A stretch of DNA of 43,560 nt from a virus, in the IMG/VR virus record IMGVR_UViG_3300044609_000155, positions 1-43,560 of that record, one strand, 5' to 3'. Of the stretch, positions 1,176-43,560 are shown one piece after another. The translations under genes were made by a program, and so were the position numbers. A model generated the notes under the pieces. It saw only the letters and a program-made list of their open reading frames with translations, was not told the origin of the DNA and searched no databases. Position 1 is the first letter of the stretch, and each line of letters begins with the position of its first letter.

Positions 1176-1529
1176 GTGGCTAACACTTCTGTTACTTCTG
1201 TAGGTCGCGTAAATAATACGAGCGCGACCCCTCTTGCTCTTGGTACTGCTTATGATACCAAGTATGCAACTTATCTGAAACTGTTCTCTGGCGAGATGTT
1301 CAAGGCGTATGAAAGCGCCACTATCGCCAAGGGCACTGTGCAGAGCCGTACCCTGAAAAATGGAAAGGCTATGCAGTTCATTTTCACGGGCCGCATGGAG
1401 GCGGCGTACCATGAGCCTGGTACCCCGATTCTGGGCTCTGGGGATCCCCCGGTGGCTGAGAAGACCATCATCTGCGACGACCTGCTGATCTCCAGCGCTT
1501 TCGTCTACAGCCTTGATGAGACACTGGCT
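1176..1529 (+). CDS. Major capsid protein, exon 1
   Basis: First exon (118 codons) of the T7 gp10-type HK97-fold major capsid protein that forms the icosahedral head. GTG at 1176 is the only usual start, because an in-frame TAG lies upstream at 1140 with no ATG between. The sequence runs MANTSVTSVGRV ... KLFSGEMFKAYE ... TLKNGKAMQFIFTGRMEAAYH ... DDLLISSAFVYSLDETLA, matching the gp10 N-terminal half. The in-frame TGA at 1530 is not a true stop but the first bases of a group I intron. Removing 1530-1734 joins DETLA to HYSLRSEIAAKIG in phase 0, giving a 339-aa protein, close to family size. No strong Shine-Dalgarno is seen. Confidence 0.93.
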
Positions 1530-1734
1530 TGAGTATTGGGTCAGTATAAATTGGAAGAATTGCTGGAACCCTAAGTCCGAACGGATATGGCAATCAGCAG
1601 CCGAGCCTCTTACGCTTAAGAGGAAGGTTCAGAGACTAGGTGGTTTGGGAAGCGTCCCATGTAATACACCATAAGAATCCAACACCAAATGGTGAAGATA
1701 TAGTCCGAACCTAGCCGAAAGGTTAGTATATTTG
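1530..1734 (+). ncRNA. Group I self-splicing intron in the capsid gene
   Basis: A 205-nt intron with the group I core. P1: exon CTGGCT (1524-1529) pairs with 1539-1544 and leaves the U.G wobble at the 5' splice site. P3: TTGGA 1551-1555 with TCCAA 1678-1682. P4: TGCTGG 1561-1566 with TCAGCA 1594-1599. P6: GAGCC 1603-1607 with GGTTC 1626-1630, with an apical P6a. P7: GACTA 1634-1638 with TAGTC 1701-1705. P8: CACC/GGTG hairpin 1683-1694. P9: AACCT 1708-1712 with AGGTT 1720-1724. It ends in G1734 (omega G). Extra stems between P7 and P3' (GGGA/TCCC) resemble P7.1/P7.2 of subgroup IA. There is no ORF inside, so any mobility would need an endonuclease encoded elsewhere. Confidence 0.93.
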
Positions 1735-2400
1735 CATTACTCGCTCCGTTCGGAGATCGCTGCAAAGATCGGCCACGCTCTGGCCGAAGCTTATGACAAG
1801 AAGATCTTCCGCACCATTGCTAAGGCTGCTCGTGAAGCACACCCCATCACTGCTGCCCCTGGCCCTGAGCCCGGTGGTTCGGTAATCCAACTTGGTGTCA
1901 ACAAAGAGTATGACGCACAAGCCCTGGTGGACGCCTTCTTTGAGGCTGCTTCCATCATGGATGAAAAGAACCTGCCCAAGCAGGGTCGCACCGCTGTGCT
2001 GTCTCCTCGTCAGTACTACGCTCTGATCAGTCAAGTTGATACCAACATCCTGTACCGCGAATTTGGTAATAACCAAGGTTCTATGAACTCTGGTGATGGT
2101 CTCTATGAGATCGCTGGTATCAGCATCAAGCGTTCTAACAACCTGCCCTTCCTGGCTGGCAACATTGCCGCTGTGAACGGTGAGAACAATAACTACGCTG
2201 GTGATTTCAGCACCCACTGTGGTCTGATCTACCAGAAGGATGCCGCTGGTGTGGTTGAGGCCATTGGTCCTCAAGTACAAACCACTGGCTCCGACGTGCG
2301 CACCATGTACCAAGGCGACATCATTGTGGGTCGTCTGGCCATGGGCTGTGGCACTCTGAATCCCGCTGCTGCTATTGAACTGCAGTCTGCTCGTTCCTGA
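1735..2400 (+). CDS. Major capsid protein, exon 2
   Basis: Second exon (221 residues) of the gp10-type major capsid protein, beginning HYSLRSEIAAKIGHALAEAYDKK, which continues the helix region after DETLA. It includes QGRTAVLSPRQYYALISQVD and the C-terminal VGRLAMGCGTLNPAAAIEL typical of podoviral capsid proteins. A separate start here (TTG 1732) is unlikely, because the exon 1 homology would be lost and the intron between has a full ribozyme core. A Shine-Dalgarno (AAAGGAGA) after the stop serves the next gene. Confidence 0.93.
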   Translation, partial: HYSLRSEIAAKIGHALAEAYDKKIFRTIAKAAREAHPITAAPGPEPGGSVIQLGVNKEYDAQALVDAFFEAASIMDEKNLPKQGRTAVLSPRQYYALISQVDTNILYREFGNNQGSMNSGDGLYEIAGISIKRSNNLPFLAGNIAAVNGENNNYAGDFSTHCGLIYQKDAAGVVEAIGPQVQTTGSDVRTMYQGDIIVGRLAMGCGTLNPAAAIELQSARS

Positions 2401-17500: not shown

Positions 17501-17738
17501 TTACTACAAACAGAACCCAGAAGCCCGTCAACAACGTCTCAAACAACAGAAACGTTATAACAAGACTGCTGAAGGTCTAAAGATTCGCTCTAAAGCGAAC
17601 AAATTAAACCGTGAACTCGGTACATATGGCAATGGAGACGGTATGGATGCGTCTCATACAGGCCCAAATACCGGGAAAAAGGAAAAACCAGCGTCAAATC
17701 GACGTAGACCACGTACTGGTAAGAAGTACGCATCATGA
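17481..17738 (+). CDS. Basic conserved phage protein in packaging region
   Basis: I chose ATG 17481 (MAGKTSDYYKQNPEARQQRL), which overlaps the TerS end; an upstream start at 17463 is possible. The 85-aa product is Lys/Arg/Gln/Asn-rich and has YGNGDGMDASHTGPNTGKK in its C-terminal half. Similar proteins with a GNGDGxDxSH motif occur near terminase genes of many podoviruses (from memory), with no established role. DNA or RNA binding is likely from charge. Confidence 0.8.
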   Translation: MAGKTSDYYKQNPEARQQRLKQQKRYNKTAEGLKIRSKANKLNRELGTYGNGDGMDASHTGPNTGKKEKPASNRRRPRTGKKYAS

Positions 17739-18061
17739 CACCGCTGCTACCTAGTCCTGATCACTATCTCCACAACCTCATAACCATGACAAGCCCTGAA
17801 GCAAAGCGCCTTTGGAGGCGTGCGATTAAGGAACACTTTAATTGTCAGTGTGTCTATTGCGGAGAAACCTATGAATTACACGAACTTACACTCGACCATG
17901 TTAAACCTAAGTGCTATGGAGGAGAAGATCTTACCTCAAACCTCGTACCTAGTTGTTGGAAGTGTAATCAGGATAAAGGTAGCAACAACTGGCTCTCTTG
18001 GATGAGAGCGACTTTTGGAATCACTCCTCGGGAGAACCTCATTCTTTCACATATTAACTAA
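17735..18061 (+). CDS. HNH endonuclease next to terminase
   Basis: The 108-aa product has a zinc-finger HNH fold: Cys39 and Cys42 (CQCVYCGE), LDHVKPKCYGGEDL with Asp54-His55, then SNLVPSCWKCNQDKGS with Cys74, Cys77 and Asn78. It nicks or cuts double-stranded DNA. HNH proteins beside terminase genes are known to assist cos or concatemer cutting in some phages (established for several siphoviruses). A homing role is the alternative, notable because the capsid intron has no endonuclease of its own. Start ATG overlaps the previous stop; 17786 is an alternative start. Confidence 0.88.
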   Translation: MTPLLPSPDHYLHNLITMTSPEAKRLWRRAIKEHFNCQCVYCGETYELHELTLDHVKPKCYGGEDLTSNLVPSCWKCNQDKGSNNWLSWMRATFGITPRENLILSHIN

Positions 18062-18063
18062 TT

Positions 18064-18879
18064 ATGGCATATAAAACAGTCCGCAGAAATGGTCGGGATG
18101 TCCTGATTGATACCCGTACTGGCAAAGAAGTCAAGCCAGGACAGCGCTTGATGAATGAATTAAGGTGGGCCGGTCAAGGGATCACAGACAACTACACTTA
18201 TTCTGATAAAGTCGATGCAAAGTCTGGCCGTCGCCTGACCCCTGCAGAAGTTCGTAAGGCAGAAAAGCCGAGTAAACCTGCTGCTACGTCTTCATCTAAG
18301 CCTGCAGCAAAACCCGCTGCCAAGCCTGCAGCCAAACCCACAGCTAAAGCACCAAAGAACGGAGATCGTACAGTTAAAGAAGGCAATGTATTTGTCTTCA
18401 ACAACGGTCAGTGGACCCTTGCGCCCAAGCCCGCTGCAAAACCCCAGTCAACCACTAACCGTCCAGCAGCAACACAACCCAGCCGCCCCGCTGCAAGCCG
18501 TCCCTCAGCTCCTGCAGCTCCTGCAAAACCTGCATCCCCTGCAGCTCCCAAAGACCGCCGTGTCTCCGCAGCGACTGCTAACCGTGAGTCAGGTAACTAT
18601 GGCACTAGCCGAACCAATAACCCCATGATCGACGACGCCATGAAGGCTCGGATGCGTCAACGGGAAGATGCTGCTGGTGTCGGTCCTGTTAAGGATGGTG
18701 CTCGTTATGCAGCTGATGTGAAGAGCAACACCCAAGGTGTCGGTCCAGTTAAGGATGGTGAGCGCTATGCAAGTAATGTGAAGCCCTCAGCTTCTACCGC
18801 AGGTAAGAAGAAAGAGGACGAAACCAAGAAAATGTCCATCGCTGAACGTATGCGTCGGCGTCGTGCAGGTCTTGCATAA
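18064..18879 (+). CDS. Ala/Pro/Lys-rich low-complexity protein
   Basis: The 271-aa product has a short ordered N-terminus (MAYKTVRRNGRDVLIDTRTG), a long disordered stretch of KPAAKPAAK-type repeats (about residues 75-165), two copies of a GVGPVKDGxRYA unit near residues 202-232, and a basic end (SIAERMRRRRAGLA). No family is recognised. It closes the tail/lysis/packaging operon before a terminator. The disordered, basic nature suggests a scaffold-like, virion or nucleic-acid-binding role, but this is inference. Confidence 0.75.
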   Translation: MAYKTVRRNGRDVLIDTRTGKEVKPGQRLMNELRWAGQGITDNYTYSDKVDAKSGRRLTPAEVRKAEKPSKPAATSSSKPAAKPAAKPAAKPTAKAPKNGDRTVKEGNVFVFNNGQWTLAPKPAAKPQSTTNRPAATQPSRPAASRPSAPAAPAKPASPAAPKDRRVSAATANRESGNYGTSRTNNPMIDDAMKARMRQREDAAGVGPVKDGARYAADVKSNTQGVGPVKDGERYASNVKPSASTAGKKKEDETKKMSIAERMRRRRAGLA

Positions 18880-32907: not shown

Positions 32908-34136
32908 AGCACAGGGTTGCTCAGATTCTTACCGATCAACAACTACATGGATGGTACTTTGATGAGCCTTCTGCATGGGAACTTGAATCAACTCTCCGAA
33001 GAGAGCTTGAGGAAATTAGTCAGGTACTACGAAACAGGTTTCCTTACGTACTCGGATCGGAATTTACTCCTAAACGAGATCTCCGGACACAGGGATACGT
33101 CGGGGGAGCAACTTTCTCTCGACTAAAGGATCTCAATCCAACAAGCCGTGATCACATTGCGTGGATCATGAAGACGTACTACAAATGGAACCCAACTGAA
33201 TTCACTGACAAGGGGAAACCAGTCATTGACGAAGTAGTTCTCAAAGACATCGGAACAGAGGTTGCTCTGCAGTTCTTCCGGTGCTTGGAGCTGACAAAGT
33301 TCCTTGGCATGTTGTCTGAAGGAGTGAATGCATGGCTGAAGCTAGTACGCAACAACCGAATACATCACCACTGTTCAGTGGCTACTATCACACATAGATG
33401 TGCACATCGTAAACCAAATTTGGGTCAAGTTCCAGTTGAACCTGAATTTAGGAAGCTATTCCGCGCTAGCCCTGGTTATGTCATGGTTGGTGCTGATCTA
33501 GCAGGCATCGAGCTAAGAATGCTAGCCCACTATTTGGCTAGACATGATGGGGGCCGCTACGGAGACGTACTTCTCAATGGCGACATACATCAAGAGAATG
33601 CCAACAAGATAGGTATCTCCAGAAAGCTAGTCAAGACCGTTACTTATGCGTTCCTTTATGGTGCTGGCGATCAAAAGATTGGGCTATCATATGATGCCCA
33701 GCTTCCCCCGAACAAGGCAAAGAAAAAGGGTAAGGAAATTAGGCAGGCCTACATGGATGCTATTCCTGGTCTTGAGAAACTTGTTAATGCTACTAAGACA
33801 GCTGCAGAAAGAGGTTACATACGCAGCATCGACGGTAGGCATATCAGCTGTAACTCGCCACATAAGGCATTGAATATGCTCCTGCAGTCAAGTGCAGGTG
33901 TTATAGCAAAACGGTGGATGCTGTTAACGCATGAAGCCATTATCAGAGCTGATATTAAAGCTCACCAATTAGCGTTCGTTCATGACGAACTGCAGTTTGA
34001 AACTAAACCTAACTTTATAGATGATCTCAAGTTCGCCCTCCTGTGGGGTGCAGCTGGAGCTGGAGAATATTACAACCTTAGGATCCAGATCGCAGCTGAC
34101 GCCAAGTCAGGAAGAGATTGGTCAGAAGTCCACTAG
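32811..34136 (+). CDS. DNA polymerase, polymerase part (gp5 C-terminal)
   Basis: Open frame with ATG 32811; residues from about 27 (PDWIQLEHRVAQILTDQQLHG) are homologous. Polymerase motifs: A, MVGADLAGIELRMLAHYL; B, RKLVKTVTYAFLYGAGDQKIG; C, AFVHDELQFE. It ends GRDWSEVH with terminal His, like T7 gp5. The first 26 residues are encoded by DNA that also codes for the exonuclease in another frame, so independent initiation here would give an unrelated N-terminal stub. A GGAAGGA stretch abuts the ATG, too close for a normal Shine-Dalgarno. Confidence 0.9.
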   Translation: MVTRDAGLLLTRCQRYKKALERLPQIPDWIQLEHRVAQILTDQQLHGWYFDEPSAWELESTLRRELEEISQVLRNRFPYVLGSEFTPKRDLRTQGYVGGATFSRLKDLNPTSRDHIAWIMKTYYKWNPTEFTDKGKPVIDEVVLKDIGTEVALQFFRCLELTKFLGMLSEGVNAWLKLVRNNRIHHHCSVATITHRCAHRKPNLGQVPVEPEFRKLFRASPGYVMVGADLAGIELRMLAHYLARHDGGRYGDVLLNGDIHQENANKIGISRKLVKTVTYAFLYGAGDQKIGLSYDAQLPPNKAKKKGKEIRQAYMDAIPGLEKLVNATKTAAERGYIRSIDGRHISCNSPHKALNMLLQSSAGVIAKRWMLLTHEAIIRADIKAHQLAFVHDELQFETKPNFIDDLKFALLWGAAGAGEYYNLRIQIAADAKSGRDWSEVH

Positions 34137-34443
34137 CAAGTGTTTTTTGTGTAAGGCCGAATTACCACTTGAAGCCTTTCATAGAAACAAGAATAGGGGA
34201 TGTGGCGTTCAATATGAATGCAAGGAATGCAAGAAGAGGTATGCGAGCGAAAGAAAGAAGTATGTGCTGCCAGAAAATGAGATATGCCATTGCTGTAAAA
34301 GGGCACCAGCAACACACTGGGATCACTGCCACAGTACATGGCAGTTTCGTGGATGGTTGTGTAACCAGTGCAATGCAGGTATTGGTTACCTAAATAACAG
34401 CATAGAAATTCTGAAATCAGCCATTAACTACCTATCCACCTAA
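34021..34443 (+). CDS. Endonuclease VII-like HNH nuclease
   Basis: The conserved part begins near 34124 (STSKCFLCKAELPLEAFHRN) with CxxC pairs, CKECKKRY, CHCCKRAPATHWDHCH and FRGWLCNQCNAGIGYL, the endonuclease VII (His-Me finger) signature with its zinc ligands. T4 gp49 resolves Holliday junctions; phage relatives are often free-standing homing endonucleases. No ATG lies near the domain; ATG 34021 (or GTG 34048) lies inside the polymerase gene in another frame and would add about 35 unrelated residues. So the true start, or a shift from the polymerase frame, is open. Confidence 0.8.
   Translation: MISSSPSCGVQLELENITTLGSRSQLTPSQEEIGQKSTSKCFLCKAELPLEAFHRNKNRGCGVQYECKECKKRYASERKKYVLPENEICHCCKRAPATHWDHCHSTWQFRGWLCNQCNAGIGYLNNSIEILKSAINYLST
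34430..34439 (+). promoter_or_regulatory. ACCTATCCAC motif, copy 9
   Basis: ACCTATCCACCTAAGCACAC overlaps the stop of the endonuclease VII-like gene and precedes the next ATG by 10 bases. Last copy seen; none was noticed in the capsid-tail half of the genome. Confidence 0.5.
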
Positions 34444-42930: not shown

Positions 42931-43560
42931 ATGACTGCTACTATCGCAGCCCCACGCTCTCAAGACAATACTTGGGAGCGTTTTTGTAGCTGGGTCACCA
43001 GCACTGATAACCGTCTTTATGTTGGGTGGTTTGGGACATTGATGATTCCATGTCTCCTTACTGCCACTATTTGTTTTGTCATTGCATTTATTGCGGCTCC
43101 CCCTGTCGATATTGATGGCATCCGAGAGCCCGTAGCTGGGAGTCTTCTTTATGGAAACAACATCATATCGGGAGCCGTCGTTCCGAGCAGCAATGCCATC
43201 GGACTACACCTCTACCCAATTTGGGAAGCTAATTCACTTGATGAATGGCTCTACAACGGGGGCCCATTCCAACTCACAGTGTTCCACTTCCTCATTGGCA
43301 TCTATGCTTACATGGGACGGGAATGGGAACTTAGCTATCGACTAGGGATGAGGCCCTGGATCTTTGTCGCATACTCAGCACCCGTTGCCGCAGCGACGGC
43401 AGTCTTCCTCGTGTATCCGTTTGGTCAAGGTAGTTTCTCGGACGCCATGCCCCTGGGTATCTCCGGCACCTTCAACTACATGCTGGTGTTCCAGGCTGAG
43501 CACAACATCCTGATGCACCCCTTCCACATGCTTGGTGTGGCTGGTGTGTTCGGTGGCTCC
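42931..43560 (+). CDS. psbA: Photosystem II D1 protein, N-terminal part (continues at 1)
   Basis: ATG 42931 ([20 protein letters not shown]) begins D1; the frame runs to the window end and resumes at base 1. Segments visible: [20 protein letters not shown] (first helix), [40 protein letters not shown] (donor side), [17 protein letters not shown] and [18 protein letters not shown]. The residue equivalent to position 130 is Glu (GREWEL), as in high-light D1 isoforms. Part 43457-43560 duplicates bases 1-104. Confidence 0.98.
43457..43560. repeat. Terminal overlap, identical to 1-104
   Basis: Right-hand copy of the assembly overlap. The psbA reading frame is continuous when the copies are merged. 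Confidence 0.95.

Follow-up and report, generated by a model that had tools for sequence, protein, structure and literature searches.

A short group I intron without an open reading frame in the major capsid gene of an uncultured T7-like cyanophage

Results

The interrupted capsid gene

The window analysed here is the entire IMG/VR virus record IMGVR_UViG_3300044609_000155 (43,560 nucleotides), in which the coding sequence of the major capsid protein is broken by a 205-nt insert at positions 1530-1734. Its first and last 104 bases (1-104 and 43457-43560) are identical and psbA spans the join, from which we conclude that the genome, of ~43.46 kb, is complete and circular as assembled. Genes for a T7-like RNA polymerase, a DNA polymerase, a primase-helicase, the connector and the tail are present, and the capsid protein is closest to those of cyanopodoviruses, with 96.5% identity to that of Synechococcus phage S-SRP01 and 86-90% identity to those of S-CBP1/3/4 and DSL-LC07; the source virus is an uncultured T7-like cyanophage of the cyanopodovirus group. 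We consider the insert to be, almost certainly, a group IA2 intron that is spliced from the capsid transcript and has been mobile at its site during evolution.

The capsid frame starts with GTG at 1176 and reads as far as DETLA before it meets TGA at 1530-1532; the protein is picked up again in phase at 1735, as HYSLRSEIAAKIG, and all three frames are closed over the 205 nt between. Joining 1529 to 1735 gave an unbroken T7-type major capsid protein of 339 amino acids, which aligned without gaps, end to end, with the uninterrupted capsids of the best 80 IMG/VR relatives and of isolates, the highest identity being 97%. Precise removal of 1530-1734 thus restores the gene to the exact empty site seen in intronless relatives and, among the joins tested, offset 0 (1529/1735) combined a U before the 5' splice site, a G as the last intron base and the intact protein of the relatives. 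Both exons are under purifying selection, with dN/dS values of 0.05-0.09 for exon 1 and 0.06-0.09 for exon 2 against three intronless relatives.

A covariance search of the whole genome returned a single Rfam match, to the group I intron model RF00028 (Intron_gpI), at 1505-1727; the match covered the full length of the model (positions 1-253) and scored 68.5 bits (E 2e-15), against a gathering cut-off of 50 bits, a score that speaks for a complete P3-P4-P6-P7-P8 core. When the intron region was searched alone, the E value was 3.3e-17. The original prediction had described an ORF-less group I intron at 1530-1734, the stop after DETLA and the in-phase resumption 205 nt later, and had proposed the Rfam search and an alignment with intronless capsid genes as checks; its boundaries proved exact, and both checks, together with the covariation among same-site homologues described below, bore it out. 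The coordinates of the intron, its helices, the exons and the candidate nuclease genes are collected in Table 1.

Table 1. Positions in the window of the capsid exons, the intron and its helices, and two nuclease genes.
Feature	Position	Strand	Evidence
Capsid exon 1	1176-1529	+	PHROG major head protein; alignment to the capsids of S-SRP01 and IMG/VR
Group IA2 intron of 205 nt without a protein-coding ORF; first codon an in-frame UGA	1530-1734	+	RF00028, exact empty sites
Capsid exon 2	1735-2400	+	PHROG major head protein, E 1.5e-47
P1, exon side, ACUGGCU	1523-1529	+	7/7 pairs; follows exon changes in homologues
P10 strand GUAUUG; partner exon 2 CAUUAC 1735-1740, 5/6 pairs	1533-1538	+	Two pairs with double changes
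P1, intron side: internal guide sequence GGUCAGU	1539-1545	+	
P3, 5' strand; partner 1678-1682	1551-1555	+	Pairing invariant in 15 homologues; Rfam alignment
P4 1560-1565/1595-1600; inside it P5 1569-1570/1589-1590 and distal P5 helix 1575-1578/1583-1586	1560-1600	+	
P6 1601-1602/1626-1627; P6a 1606-1612/1617-1623	1601-1627	+	Four P6a pairs with double changes
P7, 5' strand GACUA; partner UAGUC 1701-1705	1634-1638	+	Invariant in 15 homologues; Rfam alignment
P7.1 1639-1642/1667-1670; P7.2 1646-1650/1655-1659; GUA joint	1639-1670	+	Five pairs with double changes
P8 1683-1687/1690-1694	1683-1694	+	Four pairs with double changes
P9 1711-1716/1721-1726, GAAA loop	1711-1726	+	Five pairs with double changes
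Terminal G of the intron, 3' splice site	1734	+	Sequence
HNH endonuclease, free-standing, beside terminase genes	17735-18061	+	Pfam HNH_5, E 2e-11
Endonuclease VII-like gene, after DNA polymerase	34021-34443	+	Pfam, E 1e-15; distant F-CphI relative (30%)

Structure and covariation of the ribozyme

All the elements listed in the original prediction (P1 with its U.G pair, P3, P4, P6/P6a, P7, P8, P9 and the terminal G) were found, and P7.1, P7.2 and P10 besides. The intron falls in subgroup IA2, since P7.1 and P7.2, with GUA as their joint, lie between P7 and P3; the criterion is that applied to the intron of phage Pf-WMP3 (PMC3428280). P7 is, by homology, the presumed guanosine-binding helix. 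In order to judge the fold, we aligned the 15 distinct introns of the same insertion site and scored 63 proposed pairs, counting the named pairs directly because RNAalifold cannot represent the P3/P7 pseudoknot and gave other partners there. Standard pairs filled 97.3% of the pair cells and double changes occurred in 25 of the 63 pairs, neither value being reached in any of 500 shuffles, while sliding the partners by 1-3 columns brought pairing down to 30-46%. The fold is therefore conserved through compensatory change, as in P4, where a U-A pair becomes G-C in three homologues. The conserved U.G pair at the 5' splice site, U1529.G1539, was kept in all 15, and the guide sequence tracks the exon, GGUCAG accompanying the codon GCU and GGACAG the codon UCU.

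Going by what is known of group I intron biochemistry, the intron RNA would fold and bind free guanosine in P7, and the transcript would be cut after U1529, which the U.G pair of P1 keeps in place; exon 2 would then be aligned through P10 and 1529 ligated to 1735, releasing the intron as a linear RNA that ends in G1734 and restoring the mRNA for the 339-residue capsid protein. As the first codon of the intron is an in-frame stop, unspliced RNA would yield only a 118-residue fragment and the ribozyme core would stay untranslated. The same first-codon stop is present in all 15 distinct introns at this site and, in the wider set of capsid introns described below, a stop falls within the first 12 nt in 32 of the 36 distinct introns, against 9.5 expected from shuffles; such an early stop may serve to keep ribosomes out of the ribozyme.

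A family of introns in capsid, psbA and other genes

A scan for the P7-P7.2 region of the window intron found nine contigs, all with the match in a cyanopodovirus capsid gene, and a looser scan returned 114; as the scan was seeded with this one family, the counts that follow are no census of phage introns. By alignment of IMG/VR contigs with known capsid proteins we delineated 50 capsid introns of 194-233 nt at seven sites, at residues 40, 78, 111, 119, 211, 212 and 308 in the numbering of the window protein. Three of these sites lie between codons and four (78, 111, 212 and 308) within them, in phase 1 or 2. P1 pairing was judged from the opening 22 bases of each intron and should be read with caution at sites 40, 211, 212 and 308. 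The insertion site of the window is occupied in 23 contigs, this one included, the 22 others coming from many samples and sharing the same codon boundary, and is uninterrupted in at least 120 alleles among the matches listed. Several capsid genes carry two introns, and in one cyanopodovirus (IMGVR_UViG_3300020414_000298; L165, L331:1-3001) four group I introns, at sites 40, 78, 212 and 308, divide the gene into five exons. Among the ~60 best-matching isolate and fosmid records, no capsid intron was found.

The looser scan also revealed 58 introns at four sites in psbA, many of them closely followed by a gene of endonuclease VII type, and the introns of capsid and psbA sites group in one family. 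Two family introns, at site 298 and at 336 or 338, occur together in the psbA genes of L103, L110, L132, L164, L180 and L198, most of which are then followed by such a nuclease gene. Further members lie in an HK97-type capsid gene (Pfam Phage_capsid in L162, with L144, L168 and L197 looking alike), in a gene whose product, an unnamed phage protein with no clear family match (L100, L105, L114, L188 and L189), may be another capsid type, and in a DNA polymerase gene accompanied by a LAGLIDADG frame (L186). Three pattern matches were due to chance: L083, which contains neither a capsid gene nor an intron, L095 and L096. The capsid genes of P-SSP2 and P-SSP3 seemed split in tblastn, and the P-SSP2 gene proved to be one open frame with no intron.

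Some other features of these loci were recorded. Compared with other cyanopodoviruses, the P-SSP2 capsid gene (L081:3001-4314), like that of P-SSP3, has a large in-frame insertion that is read through. The relatives L133 and L143 have the psbA-capsid order of the window, with an intron in psbA and an adjoining capsid gene that starts intact. A short distance upstream of the capsid gene with its intron there is a Glutamine-II riboswitch at L088:5330-5386, L089:626-681, L090:12469-12519 and L091:2317-2371, and in L093 and L094; none was present in the window at the Rfam cut-off.

Distribution of the intron among related phages

The introns at the site of the window form one clade (bootstrap 100, SH-aLRT 98), within which the introns of the window and of L084 are sisters (99/92). 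The two introns are 91% identical, whereas 60-nt stretches of the exons show 57-95% identity. On the tree of capsid exons (203 distinct rows, 18 of them intron-bearing; a quick tree with SH-aLRT support only), the intron must have been gained or lost at least 10 times, as judged by the well-supported branches, and the window phage is nested within a supported set of 16 whose other 15 members are relatives that lack the intron. Taken together, the single intron clade, its scattered pattern on the exon tree and the contrast with L084 indicate transfer of the intron between phages, repeated loss, or both; the intron thus appears to have been mobile within its site over evolutionary time. At site 78 there are two distinct lineages of introns, so that this site, at least, was probably filled twice. 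We also sought a co-conversion tract, and exon identity to L084 was not raised beside the insertion when compared with intronless relatives.

Discussion

Several observations weigh against the interpretation of 1530-1734 as a mobile, self-splicing intron. The inner part of P5 is weakly paired and P10 contains one mismatch, the events recorded by the exon tree could be mostly losses through recombination with intronless phages rather than gains, and splicing of the capsid transcript, its efficiency and its products have been deduced from sequence rather than from RNA. The closed capsid frame is also what one would expect if the insert were a dead relic, no longer spliced, in a capsid pseudogene, or a chimera of assembly. 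We regard this as very improbable, given the purifying selection on both exons, the maintenance of the helices by double changes, the recurrence of the same junction in a further 22 contigs of varied sample origin and the completeness of the genome, with its 104-nt terminal repeat. Even less credible, to the point where it can practically be set aside, is a division of the gene into two capsid proteins, the second made from its own start and the insert being a structured RNA that is never removed: a frame starting with TTG does run from 1732 to 2400, but intronless relatives encode one protein of 339 residues that is gap-free at the join, the introns at sites 78, 111, 212 and 308 break codons, each of which would be lost if two separate proteins were made, and the insert fits a splicing ribozyme in every core part.

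How the intron moved is a separate question. The original prediction rightly stated that the intron has no reading frame of its own, but its suggestion that mobility would come from a separate nuclease was inference only and gained no support here. Collaborative homing, in which a free-standing nuclease, either the HNH enzyme or the endonuclease VII-like one, would cut intronless capsid genes at the insertion site, would account for the mobility of the intron; homing enzymes are known in the nuclease groups of both genes, and related cyanophage psbA introns adjoin endonuclease VII-type genes, with F-CphI cutting there (PMC6083498). The two candidates are, however, unlinked to the capsid gene. 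The HNH gene, at a distance of 16 kb, is a core gene, found at 55-94% identity in S-SRP01, S-CBP3, P-SSP7 and other isolated cyanopodoviruses whose capsid genes are intronless; the endonuclease VII-like gene lies 32 kb away and has no match in four of the six intron-bearing contigs longer than 38 kb. No member of a nuclease panel was found near any of the 43 capsid-intron loci, though about half of these have less than 1.3 kb of flank on the shorter side, GIY-YIG was absent from 24 intron-bearing contigs, and the 50 capsid introns contain no nuclease frame, their longest ATG frame being 56 residues. With no nuclease gene adjacent to the intron-bearing gene, collaborative homing of the kind known from psbA is unsupported, and we think it quite unlikely. 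As neither the intron nor its neighbourhood encodes a nuclease, movement would most likely have occurred by recombination with intron-bearing phages in mixed infection, perhaps triggered by a nuclease encoded elsewhere. Between the HNH gene and the large terminase region there is a frame for 271 amino acids (18064-18879) with no Pfam or PHROG match.

It is also conceivable, if doubtful, that splicing of the capsid intron acts as a regulatory switch, in line with the suggestion of the original prediction that it could time or limit the making of capsid. Splicing of the S-PM2 psbA intron, a relative of the window intron, rises in high light (PMC5931967), and the family occupies the genes of two of the most needed late products, the capsid protein and D1; the many capsid genes without an intron at this site, and its repeated gain or loss, fit a near-neutral mobile element instead. 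A broader proposal, which we offer as speculation with the odds clearly against it, is that a distinct family of short nuclease-free introns has become specialised for cyanophage genes that are expressed late and strongly (seven capsid sites with up to four introns per gene, and four psbA sites), spreading between sites and phages without a dedicated nuclease, with splicing coupled to the state of infection and capsid output set at the level of RNA.

As killers of the main photosynthetic bacteria of the ocean, cyanopodoviruses are of major importance, and capsid genes serve as markers for counting and classifying phages. In some lineages the capsid gene comes in two to five pieces, so that automated gene calling will report fragments or miss the gene, and viruses with a split capsid gene must probably splice RNA before they can build their shell. 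What a specialist would not have foreseen is a capsid family spread over several sites, with as many as four introns in a single gene. The seven sites of the family, with and without introns in close relatives, offer a natural series in which the spread of nuclease-free introns and the control of a late gene by splicing can be followed.

The original prediction named no known intron in a cyanopodoviral capsid gene, and we found no report of one in the open-access literature. Introns in phage capsid genes as such have precedents. The mycobacteriophage LittleE has a probable group I intron in its major capsid gene, spliced as judged by RT-PCR; it is larger than the window intron, has a putative homing endonuclease on the opposite strand and belongs to an unrelated phage (PMC3706429). 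Lactococcal phage Tuc2009, which we know here from its citation in the same paper, has an intron in a capsid subunit gene, and is likewise unrelated. Introns as short as that of the window are known from the Jug huge phages, where they average ~206 nt, are many per genome and had metatranscriptomic support for splicing in 37 of 76 cases tested; these are gut phages of Bacteroides/Phocaeicola, and the introns lie in many genes, such as terL and nrdD, with no capsid gene among those we found named (PMC12363816). The DNA polymerase intron of Pf-WMP3 is also an IA2 intron of a T7-like cyanophage, with GUA-joined P7.1/P7.2 and no P2 (PMC3428280); it interrupts another gene and contains the coding sequence of the nicking nuclease I-PfoP3I. 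Introns of cyanophage psbA, and the dependence of their splicing on light, were already known (PMC5931967), and the S-PM2 psbA intron shares with that of the window its IA2 type, the lack of a reading frame, a location in a late cyanophage gene and ~71% identity over 64% of the query; it differs in its host gene, psbA, and in being adjoined by the gene of a specific nuclease, F-CphI, whereas none lies beside the capsid gene of the window.
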